Virus record (IMG/VR): IMGVR_UViG_3300042560_001387
Coordinates: 1-31,508 of that record
From: a virus
Strand: one strand, 5' to 3'
DNA: 31,508 nt
Both the position numbers and the translations under genes were made by a program. The first letter of the stretch is position 1, and each line of letters begins with the position of its first letter. Below, piece after piece: positions 4,377 to 18,131 of the stretch. The notes beneath the pieces are model-generated. The model made no database searches and was not told the DNA's origin. It saw only the letters and a program-made list of their open reading frames with translations.

Positions 4377-5138
4377 TTAGCTTTTAGTGAAAAATTTTTC
4401 GTCGTCGGTTGAATCTGGGTATGATGATCTAGAAGAAGGACGAACCCCCGCCCCCCCTCCATCAGTGGGGGGAGGGGGCGGTAGAAAACGGGCATCCTCT
4501 GGCTCAAAAACTGGCACACCATCCTCGCCAACAGTGACGGAACAGTCAGAAGCAGGCGGTTGTTCACCGCTTGCACCCTCTAGGGTGGGCGATTGTGTGC
4601 GATTGTGTTCTTTTGTGGCGCGCGTCTGGCCGGTGATACCCATTGCCGGGACAGTCTCCACAATCACAGCGTCCACCATATCAGACCATTCGTCCGCCGA
4701 TGGGGCCTGCACATGCTCGATGCGTTGGGTCGCCTGACCCGAGGCCAACAAACCCTTTTCCATGGCAATCGACGCGGCAACCGTCTTCTCATGCGGCTTC
4801 ATATGCTGCATGTCATCGAGCAGTTGGGCGGACAGCAGAGCGGAAAGGGTGGCGAAGTTCTTCCCGGCAATGTCTAGCGCGCGGGAAAGCAACTCGGGCC
4901 GGTTGCGGATGATCGCGGCAACGGTGTGGTGGCTTGTGTTATAGATCCGGCAAATTTCCGTGATCGGCATTCCGGCCGCGTGCGCTTGGCAAATCTTCTC
5001 TGCTTTCTCCTCGGGAACATGCAGTCCGGTGACATTCTGGATACGCACGGCGGGAACCTCTGCCGGTGCGATTGGCGCGCCAGCGGGGAAGCTGGTCTTG
5101 GCGTGCTTTCGCGGCTTGCCGGTGATGGTCTTAGGCAT
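4377..5138 (-). CDS. HTH-domain phage protein with proline-rich tail, 253 aa
   Basis: Residues about 40-85 form a resolvase/transposase-like helix-turn-helix (ICQAHAAGMPITEICRIYNT). A helical segment follows, ending in GLLASGQATQRIEHV, a signature I associate with small-terminase-like or regulatory HTH proteins of phages. The tail from about residue 165 is low complexity and includes a run of prolines (FLPPPPPTDGG). Likely a DNA-binding protein; regulator or small-terminase-like roles are both possible, and no large terminase is adjacent. The start overlaps the stop of the excisionase-like gene in a TAATG junction. Confidence 0.65.
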   Translation of the reverse strand: MPKTITGKPRKHAKTSFPAGAPIAPAEVPAVRIQNVTGLHVPEEKAEKICQAHAAGMPITEICRIYNTSHHTVAAIIRNRPELLSRALDIAGKNFATLSALLSAQLLDDMQHMKPHEKTVAASIAMEKGLLASGQATQRIEHVQAPSADEWSDMVDAVIVETVPAMGITGQTRATKEHNRTQSPTLEGASGEQPPASDCSVTVGEDGVPVFEPEDARFLPPPPPTDGGGAGVRPSSRSSYPDSTDDEKFFTKS

Positions 5139-5338
5139 TAGGCGGCCGCGCGATTGTTCGCACCGGGGATCGGTTGAAGGTTTGCGTTATGGAATCGCGC
5201 AATCTCTGCGGACGAAATGAGGGTGCAGCGTAGCGTTGGACGCGAGACGCGGATCAGACCTTTGCGAACGTAGCGGTTCAACGTGTTTCGATGAATGCCT
5301 AGGCGTTTGCATGCCTCGGAAGGTCTGAACAGTTCCAT
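5138..5338 (-). CDS. Excisionase/MerR-type HTH DNA-binding protein, 66 aa
   Basis: A single winged HTH of the excisionase type: ELFRPSEACKRLGIHRNTL, then a YVRKGLIR turn, and a predicted β-wing. Such proteins act as Xis or Cro-like regulators. It is the first gene of the leftward early operon and diverges from the RHH gene at 5461. I chose the ATG at 5336-5338 because the -10 of promoter P2 ends only 9 bases upstream; longer readings would start upstream of the predicted transcript start. It would be translated from a leaderless or nearly leaderless mRNA. Confidence 0.75.
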   Translation of the reverse strand: MELFRPSEACKRLGIHRNTLNRYVRKGLIRVSRPTLRCTLISSAEIARFHNANLQPIPGANNRAAA

Positions 5339-5347
5339 ATTGCTGCG

Positions 5348-5376
5348 ATCTTGTGCGAATGTGTGCAACATGTCAA
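5348..5376 (-). promoter_or_regulatory. Predicted early promoter P2 with operator-like repeat
   Basis: Minus strand: TTGACA (5376-5371), a 17-base spacer TGTTGCACACATTCGCA, then CAAGAT (5353-5348). In the plus direction the spacer shows TGTGC direct repeats 10 bases apart (5352 and 5362), one helical turn. It shares 21 of 25 bases with promoter P1 and 21 of 26 with a copy at 5852-5877. The ATG of the HTH gene lies 9 bases after the -10. A natural binding site for one of the two switch proteins. Confidence 0.65.
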
Positions 5377-5422
5377 CAGTCAATCTCAGGGAATGTGGGG
5401 CGATCACCCCATGTGATTTCCT

Positions 5423-5451
5423 TTGCCCTGTGCGTTGGTGTGTGGTCTTGT
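5423..5451 (+). promoter_or_regulatory. Possible promoter for the RHH gene
   Basis: TTGCCC (5423-5428), 17 bases, TCTTGT (5446-5451): weak matches (4/6 and 3/6). The spacing is ideal, and the -10 ends 9 bases before the ATG at 5461, the same geometry as the other predicted promoters here. TTGTGCTTGTGT overlaps it and recurs at 5843. No Shine-Dalgarno precedes the ATG. Confidence 0.35.
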
Positions 5452-5460
5452 GCTTGTGTT

Positions 5461-5772
5461 ATGAAAAAGCAGACAAAACAGGCGAATGATATTGCCATCA
5501 ACACAAGGGTCTCGGAGGACATCCGGGCCGCCGTCGATCGGCTTTGCCGGTCTGAGGGGGTAGGGATGTCCGAGGCGGTGCGGGAAGCGGTTTCCGTATA
5601 TCTCGCCCTTTACACGGCAGCGGGAAATCGGTTACTGAGTAGCCTAGAGCGGGACGCGATTCTTGCCCAAGTGCAAGCCATGTCCGGCCGCGTCCGCGAG
5701 GCAGTAGAGCAACCGGATTCCCGCCATTTACCGATGCAGCGGCGGGCGGCAGTGTATCAGAAAAAGGCTTAA
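5461..5772 (+). CDS. Ribbon-helix-helix (Arc/CopG-type) protein, probable repressor
   Basis: A 103-residue protein. Residues 9-50 fit the RHH fold: β-strand DIAINTRVS, helix A (EDIRAAVDRLCRSEGV) and helix B (SEAVREAVSVYLALYT) with the conserved turn between them. RHH proteins bind DNA as dimers and often recognise tandem direct repeats, which matches the TGTGC repeats in the adjacent intergenic region. It is transcribed away from the excisionase-like gene, so I infer the lysogeny repressor or another switch component. The ATG at 5461 has no upstream Shine-Dalgarno. The C-terminal 45 residues are helical with no known domain. Confidence 0.75.
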   Translation: MKKQTKQANDIAINTRVSEDIRAAVDRLCRSEGVGMSEAVREAVSVYLALYTAAGNRLLSSLERDAILAQVQAMSGRVREAVEQPDSRHLPMQRRAAVYQKKA

Positions 5773-5794
5773 ACGACCGTTTGATCTTCGCCAA

Positions 5795-5807
5795 ATTTAC
5801 AGAGTAA
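5795..5807. repeat. 13-bp direct repeat (partner at 9115-9127)
   Basis: ATTTACAGAGTAA occurs here, between the RHH gene and the accessory array, and again at 9115-9127 just before the attP-like region. The two copies bracket the small-gene array. The 9115 copy is part of a perfect inverted repeat; this one is not. Confidence 0.5.
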
Positions 5808-5851
5808 AACGAAAAAAGATGACTCACGACGAACTTTTTTCCTTGTGCTTG

Positions 5852-7158: not shown

Positions 7159-7171
7159 GGAGGCACACACA

Positions 7172-7573
7172 ATGAAAATCAAAGTTCCAAAGGATTATCC
7201 GGTCAGACCATTAAAGCGCAACCAACCGGCAGAGGACCGCGCAACGTGCGGGACCTGTGGCCTGTCTTGGGATGATGCAATCATAACATCAATGACGCCA
7301 GCACCGGCCGCGCGTTGTCCGTTTGAGGAGTTCCACAATTACGCACCGCCAAAGCTGACCGCAAAACAGAAACGCGAAAACGCAGAGCGCGCCGGTCATG
7401 CTCGCCAAACCCTAGAAGCATACGCCGAGATTACCGACATGGGCGAAGACGACGAAACCATGCTCTGCGACATGCTCGCGGACATGATGCACCTTCTCGG
7501 GCGCGGAGCCGTAGAGGGGCGCATGTTCATGGCTGCCGAGCATTACGAAGCGGAAAGGAGGGGCGAAGAATGA
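7172..7573 (+). CDS. Zn-ribbon-like hypothetical protein, 133 aa
   Basis: Carries TCGTCGLSWDD (C26-x2-C29) and, 20 residues on, ARCPFEEFH (C49 and H54), which together could bind one Zn ion. The rest is helical and charged (KLTAKQKRENAERAGHARQT; later MLCDMLADMMHLL). Small phage proteins with this CGTCG...RCPFE pattern are familiar to me but of unknown function. The start is preceded by TAAGGAGGCACACACAATG, the shared leader. Its stop overlaps the next gene (ATGA). Confidence 0.75.
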   Translation: MKIKVPKDYPVRPLKRNQPAEDRATCGTCGLSWDDAIITSMTPAPAARCPFEEFHNYAPPKLTAKQKRENAERAGHARQTLEAYAEITDMGEDDETMLCDMLADMMHLLGRGAVEGRMFMAAEHYEAERRGEE

Positions 7574-7764
7574 GCATCCACAAAACCCACCTAATCCGCC
7601 AGACGGCCGCAGACTTCAACGCGGCGCACGACTATGATCTAGCGGCAGCCTTGGAGCTATCCGCCGCAGTCATCCGGCACGCGCACCTTGTCCAAGTGGC
7701 GAGGACGGAAGCCAAGGACCCGCAAATGATGCTCCCGATAGGCGGGGAGGCGTTTTTGCCATGA
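7570..7764 (+). CDS. Hypothetical protein, 64 aa
   Basis: Begins MSIHKTHLIRQTAADFNAAH. It is Ala-rich and predicted α-helical, with no recognisable domain. It starts in an ATGA overlap with the Zn-ribbon gene, and its stop overlaps the next ATG the same way, so it is probably translated by coupling. Confidence 0.6.
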   Translation: MSIHKTHLIRQTAADFNAAHDYDLAAALELSAAVIRHAHLVQVARTEAKDPQMMLPIGGEAFLP

Positions 7765-7922
7765 ACACCGGCGACCACACACACGACCGGCCCATGGTCA
7801 ACTGGTGCGCCTTCTGGCAGGTGGTGGCCGCCAAACGCACCGAACCCGGCCCGCCATGGTGGGCAGTGATGGCCGCGAGGATCAGGCAAATGATGACACA
7901 CAAGAATCGCAACGCCGCTTGA
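7761..7922 (+). CDS. Small hypothetical protein with two VMAA-type elements, 53 aa
   Basis: Starts by ATGA overlap (ATG at 7761). It contains two copies of the recurring element: QVVAAKRTE (DNA at 7821) and AVMAARIRQ (DNA at 7866). Trp-rich centre (VNWCAFWQ, PPWWAV) and a basic C-terminus. I do not recognise it. It may be a degenerate or newly formed ORF built around the repeated element rather than an old protein family. Confidence 0.45.
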   Translation: MNTGDHTHDRPMVNWCAFWQVVAAKRTEPGPPWWAVMAARIRQMMTHKNRNAA

Positions 7923-8023
7923 CGCCCGACACCGGCCTTTGTCCAATGGGGGCAGAGGCCGGAACGGACGGCAAACATGCTGACCCGGTGATGGCCGCAC
8001 CATCGAAACAAAGGAGACACACA

Positions 8024-8233
8024 ATGAAAAACGATACACCGCACACGCTGGATCATTTCAGCGCGCGCATGCGCTTCCCCGGTGGGCGCGTAACAAAATC
8101 ATTCGGCGCATGGCTTGAGGAGTGCGAACGGCACGACTCTTGGCATGAGCTGCCCGAGGAACAACGCAAACCAACCTTGGCTAACGTGGCCGCGTTTCTT
8201 GATGACTACGCGGACTTTGAGCCGGTCCAGTGA
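8024..8233 (+). CDS. Hypothetical protein, 69 aa
   Basis: Begins MKNDTPHTLDHFSARMRFPG. It is acidic towards the C-terminus and has no recognised domain. The start is chosen for AAAGGAGACACACAATG, the shared leader. The reading frame stays open upstream, so starts at 7991 (MAAPSKQRR, inside a GTGATGGCCGC copy) or 7946 are possible. Its TGA overlaps the ATG of the next gene in GTGATGGCCGC. Confidence 0.65.
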   Translation: MKNDTPHTLDHFSARMRFPGGRVTKSFGAWLEECERHDSWHELPEEQRKPTLANVAAFLDDYADFEPVQ

Positions 8234-8634
8234 TGGCCGCCAATCCCATGAAACCCAAAGTCACCGAACTGCCCATCTTGGCAGCCGTTAAAAACAACTC
8301 GCTGGATTTCATGCGAGAACACTGTGACCCGCTGCTGATGTCGGCATACATGACCCTGCTGCCATTTACTGATGTGCTAACCAGCACCTCGGCAGGTCCG
8401 CAAAAAGACCAGAACGAGGAAAGCTATATCATCACAAGCTGCGATCTGTCTGCCGGCCACGGCGAGATCATCTTCAAGATATACGCTGACCGAGTGACCA
8501 TGTGCATCATCTACCAAGCCAAGGACGGCGATCCGTTCTCGGATGGCGACGAGGAGATTACGCTGGAAGACCTGTGGGAAATCCTGCGCAACTGCCCGCG
8601 CCCGCCTCATTCGTTTGTCAGGAGGGCACAGTGA
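8233..8634 (+). CDS. Hypothetical protein, 133 aa
   Basis: Begins MAANPMKPKVTELPILAAVK and ends HSFVRRAQ. It looks like a mixed α/β soluble protein with an acidic stretch (DGDPFSDGDEEITLEDLWEI). I do not recognise it. It starts at a GTGATGGCCGC element, where ATG overlaps the previous stop (TGATG); the GTG just before it is an alternative start. Its last bases hold AGGAGGG, the ribosome-binding site for the following gene. Confidence 0.6.
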   Translation: MAANPMKPKVTELPILAAVKNNSLDFMREHCDPLLMSAYMTLLPFTDVLTSTSAGPQKDQNEESYIITSCDLSAGHGEIIFKIYADRVTMCIIYQAKDGDPFSDGDEEITLEDLWEILRNCPRPPHSFVRRAQ

Positions 8635-8837
8635 TGGCCGCTACAACTAGGCAATACGTTAAGATCAGAGACCAAGGCAAGGGGGCCGTGTATCGCTACC
8701 TCGTCGAACTACTGTCTCCCGATGGTCCGAAGTGGATGATTGCATCCCAAGGCAGCCTGCACGGCAGCAAGGCCAAGGCGAAAGCCGAGGCCAAGCGCCT
8801 TGCTGGTATCTACCGCTGCGACATTGTGGAGGACTAA
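8634..8837 (+). CDS. Small basic hypothetical protein, 67 aa
   Basis: Begins MAATTRQYVKIRDQGKGAVY. A β-rich start is followed by a basic helix (GSKAKAKAEAKRLAGIYR), compatible with RNA or DNA binding. It begins in a TGATG junction within a GTGATGGCCGC copy and is preceded by AGGAGGGCACAG. No family recognised. Confidence 0.6.
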   Translation: MAATTRQYVKIRDQGKGAVYRYLVELLSPDGPKWMIASQGSLHGSKAKAKAEAKRLAGIYRCDIVED

Positions 8838-8852
8838 GAACACGCCGCTCAC

Positions 8853-8881
8853 AAGGGAGGGGGCAAATCGTCCCCTCCCTT
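8853..8881 (+). terminator. Hairpin, possible attenuator or weak terminator
   Basis: AAGGGAGGGG and CCCCTCCCTT pair perfectly over 10 bp around a 9-base loop. Only TT follows, so termination would be incomplete. It lies 14 bases after the stop of the 67-aa gene and just before the start of the 50-aa gene. It could equally bury the GGGAGGGG purine tract and modulate translation. Confidence 0.5.
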
Positions 8882-8894
8882 CAGCCGGCAAGTG

Positions 8895-9047
8895 ATGGCC
8901 GCCGAGACCATGGAAACCAAGCAAGACCTAGTGCGACTGATGGAAGGGGCGATAGCCAAAGCCAAGCAGCGCAAGCAACGCCGGCCGATCTCGCACCCCA
9001 CGACCAAGATGCGCATGAAGTGCCGCAACGCCCAAGGCGTCCGGTGA
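8895..9047 (+). CDS. Very basic small protein, 50 aa
   Basis: Starts MAAETMETKQDLVRLMEGAI and continues with Lys/Arg-rich sequence (AKAKQRKQRRP, then KMRMKCRN). Likely nucleic-acid binding by charge alone. It begins at the ATG of a GTGATGGCCGC copy, and its TGA overlaps the next copy. No Shine-Dalgarno stands out apart from the distant hairpin GGGAGG. Confidence 0.5.
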   Translation: MAAETMETKQDLVRLMEGAIAKAKQRKQRRPISHPTTKMRMKCRNAQGVR

Positions 9048-9127
9048 TGGCCGCCCGATCCACCGAAAGCACACACCTTGACACCATCCGTGTGACAACA
9101 GCACACAAGTGCATATTTACAGAGTAA
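9047..9127 (+). CDS. Possible 26-aa peptide at the end of the array
   Basis: Reads MAARSTESTHLDTIRVTTAH and ends with a stop inside the 13-bp repeat. It starts at a GTGATGGCCGC copy in a TGATG junction, like its neighbours. It may be only the residue of the repeated element and not a functional gene. Confidence 0.25.
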   Translation: MAARSTESTHLDTIRVTTAHKCIFTE

Positions 9128-9135
9128 TTCTGTAA
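9117..9135. repeat. Perfect inverted repeat next to attP region
   Basis: TTACAGAGTAATTCTGTAA: 7-bp arms TTACAGA and TCTGTAA around GTAAT. Its left part is the second copy of the 13-bp direct repeat seen at 5795. It lies 23 bases from the tRNA fragment, so it could be a recombinase or excisionase binding site, or an AT-rich stem-loop. Confidence 0.55.
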
Positions 9136-9157
9136 GCCGCACAAAATGCACGGCCCT

Positions 9158-9195
9158 TTAGAAATCCGCTGCTCTATCCCCTGAGCTACGGGAGC
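9158..9195 (-). pseudogene. 5' half of tRNA-Arg(UCU): probable attachment-site core
   Basis: On the minus strand this matches tRNA positions 1-38: acceptor strand GCTCCCG, T8-A9, D-stem GCTC/GAGC with loop AGGGGATA, anticodon 5' strand GCGGA and loop TTTCTAA with anticodon TCT. From position 39 the expected TCCGC is replaced by unrelated sequence, and no T-arm follows. A tRNA piece beside an integrase gene is the usual sign of attP. Here the identity ends at the anticodon loop and covers the 5' half, which is less common than the 3' half. Confidence 0.75.
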
Positions 9196-9218
9196 AAGTT
9201 AATGATTACTCTATAATC

Positions 9219-9292
9219 TGACCCAGAATAATCCAGTTTGACCCACCTCGACCTGCACCCGAATGACACCCGACATGCACACTATTGACACC
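9219..9292 (+). repeat. Candidate integrase arm-type sites
   Basis: TGACCCA at 9219 and 9239 (20 bases apart) and TGACACC at 9264 and 9286 (22 bases apart) are similar direct repeats spaced about two helical turns. They lie between the tRNA fragment and the integrase start. TGACACC is also the half-site of the iterons, and another copy is at 9079. The surrounding 9196-9240 is AT-richer than its neighbours. Confidence 0.5.
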
Positions 9293-9313
9293 AAGGGGCA
9301 GACGGTTTAGCAA
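9285..9313 (+). promoter_or_regulatory. Predicted integrase promoter
   Basis: TTGACA (9285-9290), 17 bases, TAGCAA (9308-9313). The -35 overlaps one TGACACC repeat, so recombinase or a regulator could occlude it. The -10 ends 10 bases before the integrase ATG, again implying a very short leader. Confidence 0.5.
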
Positions 9314-9323
9314 TGGATTCGTT

Positions 9324-10499
9324 ATGAATATTAAAAGTTTCCGCATAGAAGTCCCGAAGTATGGGCTAAGAGGCACAGTCTTTCAACGCCGGGGATACCT
9401 CTGGCTGCGTTACACGCATGAGAAGAAGATGCGGCGGGTCTCCCTCAAGACCAATGATCCCAAGTTCGCCAAGGCCAAGGGGCTGTCTTACCTCACTATC
9501 CTTGGGCAGCAGGGCGGGGCGCGACTTACCGAGCTGACCCACGGCCGCGACGAATCCCCGAACATCGGCAGCGTTGTCGAGCATTACCGGCTACGGAGCG
9601 ACTGCCCGAGCAAAGAGGAAAACATTCGCTGCCTTCTGCGAGTCATCGCCCGAGCCAAGGGCATCGCCCCCTTCCGAGAGCACCCCATGATTAAGGGGCG
9701 GGCCATCGCCATGACGGATGCCGAAGTCGCCAAAGTGATGGCCGTTCGCTCCACCGAACTGAACGACAAACTGGTGCGCGAATACCTTACCAACTGCGGA
9801 ACCAGCGCCTACACGGCCGGCAGCACCCTCGCCAGTGCCAAGAGCGTCTTCGCCGACAGCAACGACTGGATCGACTTCAAACTACCCGACATCACCTCCT
9901 TCCGCGCGGCCAGCAAGCAGGCCAAGCAGAAATACAACCCGACCAGCTTCCAACACATCCCCAAGGACAAGCTGGCCGACATGGAGCGCGACAGCCGGGG
10001 CATGGCAGAGGTCCGCCGTGCCTTTATCTGCTGTCGCTACATGGGCATGACGCCCAAGGAAGTCAGCTATGCCCGCAAGTCGTGGATCGAGGACCGCCCC
10101 GAAGGCAAGACCATGTGCATCCGCGAGCGCCCCGATGAGGAGTTCACCCTAAAGACGGGGGGATGCCGCGAGCGCGACATTACCTTGGCGCCATGGATGG
10201 CCGACTATCTGCTGGCTGCCGAAGACTACATGATCCCGCTCGGCACAGAGTTCCTTCGCTACAACTTCATGCTTCGCAACTTCAACACATGGCTGCGGCA
10301 ATACATCCCGAACCGCAAGGGAGCGGCCTACGAGCTACGCAAGCAAGCCGGCAGCGACTGGCTGGAGGCGACGGGGTCACTCGTCCAAGTGCAATATCTT
10401 TTGGGGCACTCGTCCTATGTAACAACGCAACGCTGGTATGCCACATGGCAACGTGCCGTAGTCGTGCCAGAAAAATTCCAACAAGAACCAACAATATGA
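9324..10499 (+). CDS. int: Tyrosine recombinase (phage integrase) with altered box I/II residues
   Basis: A 391-residue site-specific recombinase that would insert and excise the phage at the tRNA-Arg site. The C-terminal catalytic domain is recognisable by the β-hairpin FTLKTGGCRERDITL, YELRKQAGSDW with R339, LLGHSS with H362, and the nucleophile Y372 in QRWYAT. Two usual residues differ: the box I arginine is a threonine (GMTPKEV, T243), and the His of HxxR is Y336. The N-terminal part (1-60) looks like an arm-binding domain, and a core-binding helical domain follows (about 95-200). I chose the ATG at 9324 because the promoter ends just upstream. It overlaps the lipoprotein gene by ATGA. 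Confidence 0.85.
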   Translation: MNIKSFRIEVPKYGLRGTVFQRRGYLWLRYTHEKKMRRVSLKTNDPKFAKAKGLSYLTILGQQGGARLTELTHGRDESPNIGSVVEHYRLRSDCPSKEENIRCLLRVIARAKGIAPFREHPMIKGRAIAMTDAEVAKVMAVRSTELNDKLVREYLTNCGTSAYTAGSTLASAKSVFADSNDWIDFKLPDITSFRAASKQAKQKYNPTSFQHIPKDKLADMERDSRGMAEVRRAFICCRYMGMTPKEVSYARKSWIEDRPEGKTMCIRERPDEEFTLKTGGCRERDITLAPWMADYLLAAEDYMIPLGTEFLRYNFMLRNFNTWLRQYIPNRKGAAYELRKQAGSDWLEATGSLVQVQYLLGHSSYVTTQRWYATWQRAVVVPEKFQQEPTI

Positions 10500-10909
10500 A
10501 ACTGCTAACCATAACACTCGCAGCCGCCATGGTGATGGCCGCCACGGGCTGCGAAACGAAACAGGCAAAGGCCGCAAGGATGGACGCCCAAGGAATGGTT
10601 CGCACACAAGACGGCAAGTGGGTCCCGAAAGGCACGCGCTTCTTCGGGTCCGGTCATCCTTGGGTTATGGAGAACGGCAGTCCCGCGCCGGCAGTGTTTG
10701 ACCCGACCGTCTTTAATCAAGCCATGGCTCAGAACATGGGCGGCGGGGCCGCAGCACCGGCGCCGATCATCGTGACGGGACCGGGATCACCACCGATCAC
10801 CACGGCAAGCCAAGTTGGCGGCACAACGGTTATCTCCACCATCGGCAGCCGCGCACCGATTGGCGCACCTGTTTACAGTCCGCCGGCATACGGCTATTAT
10901 GGCTACTGA
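10496..10909 (+). CDS. Small secreted lipoprotein coupled to integrase, 137 aa
   Basis: A clear signal peptide MKLLTITLAAAMVMAATGC puts the lipidated cysteine at residue 19 (lipobox AATGC, with a Thr where Ala or Ser is common). The mature part has a basic start (ETKQAKAARMDAQG), then a Gly/Pro/Ala-rich chain with a C-terminal Tyr-rich end (PPAYGYYGY). It starts by ATGA overlap with integrase, so it is expected to be expressed from the lysogen. A surface lipoprotein in this position suggests a lysogenic-conversion or superinfection-exclusion gene; that is inference. Part of its signal sequence is encoded by a GTGATGGCCGC copy. Confidence 0.75.
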   Translation: MKLLTITLAAAMVMAATGCETKQAKAARMDAQGMVRTQDGKWVPKGTRFFGSGHPWVMENGSPAPAVFDPTVFNQAMAQNMGGGAAAPAPIIVTGPGSPPITTASQVGGTTVISTIGSRAPIGAPVYSPPAYGYYGY

Positions 10910-16192: not shown

Positions 16193-17071
16193 TTAAGCCG
16201 CTACGCGGCCGTCGATGATTCGTGTTATTGGCCGGCCGGACACGTTCTGCGAACGATGCTCAAAGCCCTGCGCTGAGTTGGCGTGATCCTCGTAAGGAAG
16301 ATGCGCCGAGATGTTGTTGACTTGCGCGTTCAGCTTGGGGCACCAGACCGTGTCGGTCTCGGCACGACTGATGCAGCGGGTGCAGACATGCGGGTAGTCG
16401 GCGTTGCGCGACTTGTCGGCGAGGTGACTCCAAGATCCGGTGTCGTCCCGGCTGTAGCGTGTCTCATCATTCGGGATGCCCTCTGCCTCTAGGTATCGCC
16501 AGACATCCTCATCGCTCCAGTCCCGCATGAGGTAGAGCTGCGTTGGTGCGTCAGCGATGCGTTGAGCGTCAACAGACAAGGGGAGCACCCCTTTGATTGG
16601 GTCAACATCGGCCGACTTCTGGCCATGAAAGCAGGCGTCCCAAGGCCAAGCAAAGGCGCCCAGAGGACGTTGCAAGGCGTCCAGACCGCAGCGCCATGGC
16701 TTGCCATCAACCGGGGGCTGCGAGCCTATCGAGATGATGAGCGCCGTCTGCTGCCCCCATTGCTGATACTTTAAGAAGTCGATCTGATGCTTGCCGTCCG
16801 GCGATGTCCCGTCAGTCAGGGCGACCCGGCTGGGCGGGTAATCATGCACATCGAGATCCCATGCGCGGGTCAGTGCGTCCGCCAATTCATAGCGGTCACG
16901 GAACCAAGGGTCGCGGTATTGCACGCATGGCAACTTCACGCCGACCTTGTGCAGCAGAATATGCAGCATGGCGTTGCTGTCCTTGCCGCCGCTCCATAGC
17001 ACGCACGGGGCGCTGAACTCATTGAGCCAGCGTTCCGCCTTGCGGCAAGTGTCTGCGACAAGTTTGTCCAT
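16193..17071 (-). CDS. PP-loop ATPase of the PAPS-reductase family
   Basis: 292 residues. PP-loop LWSGGKDSNAM (residues 25-35) binds ATP. The segment YLMRDWSDEDVWRYLEAEGI (179-198) and three cysteines (C229-x2-C232 and C243) match phosphoadenosine-phosphosulfate reductase and related sulfurtransferase-like proteins. Members act in sulfate reduction, tRNA thiolation or DNA phosphorothioation (DndC-like). Which reaction applies here cannot be told, and no dnd partners are visible. The start is the ATG one base after the preceding stop (TAA-C-ATG). It stands alone among virion genes, so it may be an expression-piggybacked accessory gene. Confidence 0.85.
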   Translation of the reverse strand: MDKLVADTCRKAERWLNEFSAPCVLWSGGKDSNAMLHILLHKVGVKLPCVQYRDPWFRDRYELADALTRAWDLDVHDYPPSRVALTDGTSPDGKHQIDFLKYQQWGQQTALIISIGSQPPVDGKPWRCGLDALQRPLGAFAWPWDACFHGQKSADVDPIKGVLPLSVDAQRIADAPTQLYLMRDWSDEDVWRYLEAEGIPNDETRYSRDDTGSWSHLADKSRNADYPHVCTRCISRAETDTVWCPKLNAQVNNISAHLPYEDHANSAQGFEHRSQNVSGRPITRIIDGRVAA

Positions 17072-17072
17072 G

Positions 17073-18131
17073 TTAGAGTGCCAACCCGACTCCGGTGAGG
17101 GCACCGCCGCCGATCCCGCCAAACATCCCCATCATGCCCGCATTCTGCGAGGCACCGGCCTGCATCCCGGCAGCCTGCAAGGCGGCGTTATTGTTAAGCA
17201 CCGAGTTGTATCGGGAAGCTGCCATGTTGGTATTGAAGCTGGCCACGTTGCCCGCCTGTTGCAGCGAGCCGCCGAAGATGCTGTTCACCTGTCCGGTCGT
17301 GGTTGAAAGCGTGCTCTGCCCCAGTCCAAACGCTGGCCCAATAGCCTGCCGGAACGGATCAAGGTCGCCATAAGCCCCAGCCAATCCAACCCGCCGCTGT
17401 CTGCGCGCAAGGTCCATCTGATTGACGCCAGCAGCAAATCCACGGCGGGCATCTTCGGTCCCAAGGAAATACTGCTCGGCATCTTGAGCTGCGCCCCTGC
17501 GCGCCATCGTGCCTTGGCGAGCATACTGCTCCGCGCCAACGGCGAACTGGCGGCGCTCCGCTTCGCGTTGGCGGCCGAAGGAGTCACGATTGAGGATTTC
17601 GGCGGCGGTGCTGCCAAGGCCGGTTGCCAACCCTCTCGCAGCAAATGCGCCGCGAGCCGACTGCGTAGCGTCTCGCATCTCTTCGGCCGACAGCGAGCGT
17701 CCGAGTGCCAACTCGCGTTCCGCGTCCGTCAGGAGCTTCGACTCAATGGCAGTCGCGCCAGCGGCCAAGTCTCTTTGGGCGTCATCGCGCAGTTGCCGCT
17801 GGATGGCCGTCGGACCGGCCCGCAGATCGCCAAGTCCGCGTTTTTGCAGCTCGGCCTCGATGGCATTGGGCGCGGACGCCGCTTGCAGCTCCTCGCCGAT
17901 GACTCCGCGTGTGCGCTTCAGGTATTCGTTGTCTAGCTTTCCAGCAAGTTGATCGGCGGTAGCGAATTGCAGCTTGGTGTATTCGGGATACAACCGCTTA
18001 ATCATCGCCTCCTGCTCGGCGCTCTGTGCCTTGGCCACGCGAATGCTCGCCTCAGCCATTTTGTCGTAATCAATTGGTGCTGGCGCCGCTGGCAACGGTT
18101 GCGGCGCTGGCATGCTTGGTGATCCTCCCAT
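17073..18131 (-). CDS. Internal virion-type protein, 352 aa
   Basis: Pro/Ala-rich start (MPAPQPLPAAPAPIDYDKMA), then about 230 residues of charged helix with repeated ARxGA and QREAERR-type segments. It ends Gly/Ala-rich and hydrophobic (MMGMFGGIGGGALTGVGLAL). This shape resembles podovirus gp14-type or pilot proteins ejected with DNA. The start has AGGAGGATAATTAT in front. Located between the tailspike cluster and the giant protein. Confidence 0.65.
   Translation of the reverse strand: MGGSPSMPAPQPLPAAPAPIDYDKMAEASIRVAKAQSAEQEAMIKRLYPEYTKLQFATADQLAGKLDNEYLKRTRGVIGEELQAASAPNAIEAELQKRGLGDLRAGPTAIQRQLRDDAQRDLAAGATAIESKLLTDAERELALGRSLSAEEMRDATQSARGAFAARGLATGLGSTAAEILNRDSFGRQREAERRQFAVGAEQYARQGTMARRGAAQDAEQYFLGTEDARRGFAAGVNQMDLARRQRRVGLAGAYGDLDPFRQAIGPAFGLGQSTLSTTTGQVNSIFGGSLQQAGNVASFNTNMAASRYNSVLNNNAALQAAGMQAGASQNAGMMGMFGGIGGGALTGVGLAL

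Follow-up and report, generated by a model that had tools for sequence, protein, structure and literature searches.

In the IMG/VR virus contig IMGVR_UViG_3300042560_001387 (positions 1 to 31,508; hereafter the window, i.e., the entire 31,508-nt stretch that was analysed), a short repeat with the core GTGATGGCCGC probably constitutes an asymmetric, bipartite nucleotide element of 24-26 nt, which acts in a family of temperate phages as the shared joint of a cassette array, and at which cassettes recombine. At the level of sequence, comparison with related contigs (denoted by G numbers) demonstrated its conservation, its single orientation, its confinement to the array, and breakpoints at its core, including inside a lipoprotein gene.

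Scanning of both strands of the window yielded seven exact plus-strand copies of the core (starting at 7866, 7988, 8230, 8631, 8892, 9044, and 10532) and two plus-strand copies with one mismatch (7821 and 9735), all nine packed into about 2.7 kb of a single strand; no exact copy was found elsewhere in the window or on the opposite strand. A preceding model-based inspection of the letters (the sequence-only reading) had placed seven exact 11-mers and two near matches at the same positions. Markov models of order 2-4 predicted 0.03-0.09 copies of GTGATGGCCGC on the plus strand of the window, and the most frequent 11-mer of any kind reached 2-5 copies in simulated windows. An origin of the seven copies by chance or composition was rejected based on the Markov expectation.

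All nine copies fit the asymmetric consensus RTGATGGCCGC-N6-CA-N3-AA, in which the second block comprises CA at +17/+18 and AA at +22/+23 (first base = 0; approximately 1.9 bits per A). When copies were aligned by context, the spacing between core and second block was fixed throughout, i.e., in leaders, at gene starts, in a small open reading frame (ORF), in the integrase, and in the lipoprotein. The loose 28-bp consensus noticed earlier is therefore real and sharper than described, namely GTGATGGCCGC-N6-CA-N3-AA at fixed spacing, and similarity of the flanks does extend beyond the 11-mer. For scoring, a leave-one-genome-out matrix was used, trained without the genome being scanned. The nine copies scored 25-36 bits (with the copy at 9044 reaching the top score of the window, 36.2 bits), and the remainder of the window did not exceed 13.7 bits; neither the divergent control region (around 5400-5850) nor any other part of the window outside the array had a site above 14 bits. 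Over the genomes scanned, array copies scored 25-38 bits, one degenerate array copy 18 bits, and sites outside arrays at most 14 bits (below 13 bits in G041). In the phages scanned as a whole (window, G037, and G041), strong sites were restricted to array, integrase, and lipoprotein, and a genome-wide recombination signal of host type was rejected on this basis. A search against Rfam gave no match for the element. A small hairpin centred on GTGA and formed with the upstream flank was weakly enriched (stem of at least 4 bp in 87% of 45 flanks vs 63% in the background).

The copies, all on the plus strand, occupy several kinds of context. Copies 1 (7821-7847, GTGGTGGCCGC, where most relatives have GTGATGGCCGC) and 2 (7866-7892, 45 bp after copy 1, with flanks recombined between relatives) lie within the small plus-strand ORF at 7761-7922, which belongs to the constant part of the array. 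Copy 3 (7988-8014) is situated in the leader of a cassette gene (8024-8233, +, 69 aa, MKNDTPHT..) that was also found in G001, G014, and G038 with differing right-hand neighbours, and is followed by AAACAAAGGAGACACACA-ATG. At copy 4 (8230-8256), the stop codon of this gene overlaps the start codon of the next one (8233-8634, +, 133 aa, MAANPMKPK..) as TGATG; copy 5 (8631-8657) forms another TGATG overlap at the start of the third cassette gene (8634-8837, +, 67 aa, MAATTRQYV..), and copy 6 (8892-8918) provides the start of the fourth (8895-9047, +, 50 aa, MAAETMETKQD..). Copy 7 (9044-9070) is the last of the array and directly precedes attP without a convincing gene start, being followed by a 26-aa frame in the window and by MAAKPTE-stop in relatives. 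Copy 8 (9735-9761, GTGATGGCCGT) is located inside the integrase, and copy 9 (10532-10558) at the lipobox of the lipoprotein gene. The TGATG junctions that had been noted at 8230, 8631, and 9044 were confirmed as stop/start arrangements. The suggestion that the repeat always lies in the V-M-A-A frame held for the four contexts inside coding sequence (twice in the small ORF, once each in integrase and lipoprotein), which read V-M-A-A or V-M-A-V, and did not hold for the genes upstream of junctions, the leader copies, and the copy at 9044: at junctions, the upstream gene terminates on the core TGA in frame +1 or as VMAA-stop, and behind leader copies the next start codon follows at +34 to +54 in all three frames with a separate Shine-Dalgarno sequence. 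An always-in-frame coding motif was hence only partly right, given the different frames used in leaders and by upstream genes.

For the analysis of gene exchange, arrays were cut at the elements, the resulting pieces were clustered, and the flanks of 142 copies were compared. The arrays consist of a constant frame (the small ORF with its pair of copies, followed by a hairpin block and by attP, integrase, and lipoprotein) and a variable middle, in which cassettes recur among relatives in changed order and with changed neighbours. Pairs of copies with similar flanks on the left only numbered 91, and those with similar flanks on the right only 26. In the latter, identity rose within 3 nt, from about 0.55 to 0.97, where the core begins; in the former, it continued across core and leader and was at background by about +36. 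The flanks were grouped into 55 left and 68 right classes connected by 92 joins; one left class had 11 different right classes as partners, and all four combinations were seen for four pairs of left classes. The cleanest swap was observed between G008 and G009, which originate from two metagenomes and are 99.9% identical over 6.5 kb to the left and 4.9 kb to the right of a block containing two cassettes in G008 (874 bp) and one other cassette in G009 (236 bp); the left border of this block coincides with the 11-mer to the base. Copy 9 was a breakpoint of chimeric genes in relatives: the putative lipoprotein gene of the window (10496-10909, +, lipobox MAATGC) agrees with that of G014 through the last base of the 11-mer and is unrelated beyond, and it is unrelated to that of G038 before the 11-mer and agrees with it afterwards, G038 matching G006 in the part before. 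Judging from these alignments, the element marks the boundaries of exchangeable cassettes, and recombination appears to occur at the shared joint. The earlier idea of a tiny mobile or amplified sequence was right in spirit, but the element is a fixed joint of moving cassettes and not itself mobile. An assembly artefact was considered; the length of the core, which is below that of usual assembly words, the recurrence of the same joins across metagenomes (e.g., join I-L in the window and G038, join H-M in G008 and G014), and the match between the lipoprotein of the isolate prophage and that of the window speak against it.

Two hairpins were detected at non-coding junctions of the window, one upstream of copy 3 (7932-7962, +), whose stem is exchanged by compensatory changes in relatives, and one with a 12-bp stem at the second such junction (8853-8881, +, z -5.6). 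Stems of these junction hairpins are replaced between relatives while the flanks stay constant, with compensatory changes, i.e., both sides altered, in six pairs. The second kind of hairpin (8853-8881 type) is bordered by CCGCTCAC and the element. Hairpins are present at some junctions only, and the overlap junctions have none. The shared leader AAAGGAGACACAC precedes start codons in many relatives and was found in the window at 7165-7178 and 8017-8030 (ACACACAATGAAAA is the leader form that occurs twice in the window); it is part of the exchangeable junction, yet also stands before a gene upstream of the array.

Conservation of the copy within the tyrosine integrase gene (9324-10499, +, predicted start; phrog_1, 3e-11) was assessed in an alignment of 17 sequences from element-bearing phages (60-99% identity). 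GTG ATG GCC GT was invariant in 17/17; moreover, the fourfold sites +2, +8, and +17 and the twofold site +23, which are the synonymous positions that are informative in the element, were fixed in all 17, and +11 and +14 varied. Given that 16/100 fourfold and 10/47 twofold columns of the alignment are invariant, the probability of coincidence is about 1e-3, and only two of 1148 11-nt windows in the integrase were fully invariant, one of them being the element. Integrases of element-less relatives (approximately 40% identity) have KPLSVISP at this position. In the lipoprotein, a one-codon indel after VMAA shifts the protein and AA at +22/+23 is retained (GAA or CAA type). The fixed synonymous sites of the integrase point to selection at the nucleotide level. 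Of the possibilities raised initially, a protein-binding site that happens to be coding gained from these sites and stays a candidate.

Under the favoured explanation, the joint takes two forms: either the stop codon of the left gene overlaps the start codon of the right gene (TGATG), or the element leads into the shared Shine-Dalgarno leader (AAAGGAGACACAC-ATG). As the joint is identical whatever flanks it, a crossover inside it would swap whole small genes and leave expression unharmed. Crossovers would proceed by homologous or annealing recombination on short identity, probably assisted by phage functions such as the exonuclease family member, the SSB-like protein, and the resolvase-like protein of relatives. 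An exonuclease (phrog_298, E-value 2e-26) is encoded by the fuller relatives, in which inspection also pointed to an SSB-like protein with DIPF at its end and a resolvase-like protein. Relaxed recombination by phage enzymes has been described for other temperate phages (PMC3945230). A second, nucleotide-level role, e.g., binding of a protein or RNA within the operon, would keep non-swapping copies such as that of the integrase unchanged, and the element is probably bound in this way in addition to its function as a joint.

Several observations weigh against this explanation. The right border of the G008/G009 swap is not at the 11-mer; it falls at a hairpin block (the equivalent of the window hairpin at 8853-8881) that precedes the next element by about 80 nt. 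At the integrase copy, none of 120 pairs was discordant, i.e., no recombination was seen there; within the integrase, discordant pairs were absent at element and control positions alike, except near the 3' end beside the lipoprotein. Swapping alone hence does not explain the integrase copy, whose conservation without visible exchange is the reason for proposing the second role. The synonymous-site argument for the integrase was made post hoc. In a cruder test based on high-scoring segment pairs (HSPs), starts clustered less sharply than ends. Since the elements sit at gene ends, selection for whole genes would by itself lead to some clustering of breakpoints. An annealing recombinase was not identified, and all relatives except one are metagenome contigs.

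The copies could instead be purely regulatory sites, at which a phage or host protein binds the transcript or DNA in the manner of stoperators or start-associated sequences, breakpoints arising there only through the survival of recombinants joined at gene starts. The single orientation along one transcription unit, the bipartite structure with fixed spacing independent of reading frame, the constrained synonymous sites of the integrase, and the presence of copies within the integrase and lipoprotein coding sequences would all suit such sites; breakpoints that coincide exactly with the element within the lipoprotein gene, away from any gene boundary, would not, and neither would the restriction to the array with no copy in the control region, given that repressor sites of the L5 type are also located at promoters (PMC9283540). 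A purely regulatory role is considered rather unlikely. A dedicated exchange site, at which a phage-encoded protein would recognise the bipartite 24-bp sequence and stimulate crossovers, so that this temperate phage family had an integron-like system of its own for swapping small accessory genes, is regarded as unlikely.

Integron-like site-specific recombination in the strict sense, with the phage integrase or a host recombinase cutting the element at a fixed base and thereby shuttling cassettes, would account for unrelated cassettes being joined exactly and repeatedly at one short site, for the position of the array next to attP and a tyrosine integrase, and for the variable hairpins bounded by CCGCTCAC and GTGATGG. 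It is nevertheless quite improbable, as hairpins are missing from the overlap junctions, attP consists of a tRNA-Arg segment with flanking TTGACACC-like repeats dissimilar to the element, no integron hallmark (GTTRRRY, attI) was seen, and the cleanest swap has one border away from the element. An exclusively translational element is very unlikely; in that case, the host would favour a strong start context (stop/start restart with an MAA N-terminus), and the repeat would recur because many genes use it. Many copies do form TGATG junctions or provide a start codon, and stop/start coupling is part of the role of some. However, not every copy is an in-frame start: leader copies have their own start signals, no gene begins at the copy before attP, a start is not required at the internal copies, the CA-N3-AA block is not part of any start signal, and other gene starts of the phage have no copy. 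As a general account, the translational restart element proposed in the sequence-only reading consequently fails.

The repeat as a joint of cassettes was compared with known systems. Start-associated sequences (SAS) and their extended form (ESAS) of cluster K mycobacteriophages (PMC3203893) are likewise short asymmetric repeats in one orientation at the starts of non-structural genes of different families, sometimes include the upstream stop codon, and have hairpins or inverted repeats associated with a subset; they occur in 11-19 copies and are absent from unrelated phages. The present element is also confined to non-structural genes of different families in one orientation, but SAS are 13-bp GGGATAGGAGCCC sequences containing AGGAG and located 3-8 bp upstream of the start codon (PMC3203893), whereas the element differs in sequence and spacing, carries the start codon and no Shine-Dalgarno sequence in its core, is also found inside coding genes, and was observed at breakpoints of gene exchange. 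Promoter early stem-loops (PeSLs) of T4-type phages (Arbiol 2010, Comeau 2014) are described in PMC4503421 as repeated composite junction motifs that shuffle small genes, with stem-loops at some junctions, and as promoters plus terminator stem-loops of lytic myoviruses. Exchange of adjacent genes between relatives was observed here as well; the element, by contrast, has no apparent promoter character, most of its junctions have no stem-loop, four of its contexts are coding, and the phage is temperate, with attP next to the array. Boundary (linker) sequences proposed for lambdoid phages (PMC3029335) resemble the element as short common sequences at module boundaries that would focus homologous exchange, and identity breakpoints at a short common sequence were found here, less clearly so in the HSP test. 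Each of them belongs to a single junction, and most mosaic boundaries have none according to PMC3029335, whereas one sequence is used here for all array junctions and even within genes. Stoperators of cluster A mycobacteriophages such as L5 (PMC9283540) are numerous asymmetric short sites that are oriented with transcription, lie in short intergenic spaces, and are recognised by a two-domain monomer, which would suit a bipartite site; they are distributed over the whole genome including promoters, unlike the element, whose copies are all in one array, and no repressor was identified here. Integron cassettes (attC) share the exchangeable array of small genes, the common joining site, and the adjacent tyrosine integrase, but the element array has neither an attC consensus with GTTRRRY (its core being GTGATGG) nor a universal hairpin per cassette, runs in one direction, lacks attI, and is accompanied by an integrase with its own tRNA attP. 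The element has some of the defining features of each of SAS, boundary sequences, PeSLs, and stoperators, lacks at least one in every case, and is a member of none of them.

The element family belongs to integrating (temperate) phages from environmental DNA. The 702-aa portal-like protein of the window has 227 relatives in IMG/VR, and pattern searches together with region extraction identified the element in 18 related IMG/VR contigs. The fuller of these contain 6-10 exact copies each, always on the integrase strand, and copies in element-bearing relatives are confined to a 2-5 kb array of small genes adjoining attP and integrase. Distant relatives lack the element in the count that the sequence-only reading had suggested as a check; among relatives of like GC content, G017 and G027 (37-39 kb, 59-61% GC) have no copy. 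Scans of IMG/VR with two extended forms matched the element family and close kin only. Among known phages (INPHARED), no nucleotide match and no match to the integrase were obtained, and the portal-like protein had one distant relative.

It has long been asked whether phage mosaicism arises via short shared boundary sequences or via illegitimate recombination with subsequent selection. Exchange exactly at the element makes this question testable, as the family supplies a defined sequence to mutate, one sequence stands at almost every boundary in an array whose small genes have no known function, and G008 and G009 represent a natural near-identical pair one clean swap apart. Its distance to SAS, PeSLs, and stoperators, whose functions are partly open, additionally makes the element a useful comparison.

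The attP core (9158-9195, -) is part of a tRNA-Arg(TCT); this observation covers the window and L085 3529-3604. In G005, an integrated prophage of an isolate (IMG 2737471655), the complete tRNA-Arg(TCT) adjoins an integrase of 99% identity. Beyond it, about 3.5 kb of host flank includes genes for a transporter and a Kef-type exchanger. The array was not seen in the G005 contig, which probably ends before it, because the integrated state would place the array at the other prophage end. Within 9070-9300 of the window, attP is flanked by TTGACACC-like repeats (about 9077 and 9285) and TTTGACCCACC (about 9238), which look like integrase arm sites. Searches with 28 representative cassette proteins yielded a single weak hit in Pfam and a single PHROG, itself of unknown function. 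Where cassette proteins are related to the common small phage proteins of the type 'AAPDLL..AIAKAT' (G001, G006, G008, G009, G035, G037, and G039), they frequently terminate in -VMAA, as their reading frames run out within the element. RHH-like and HTH-like proteins are encoded at 5138-5772 of the window. A gene similar to phosphoadenosine-phosphosulfate reductases (16193-17122, -; phrog_424, E-value 1e-8) is located among the virion genes of the window and is also present in G037.

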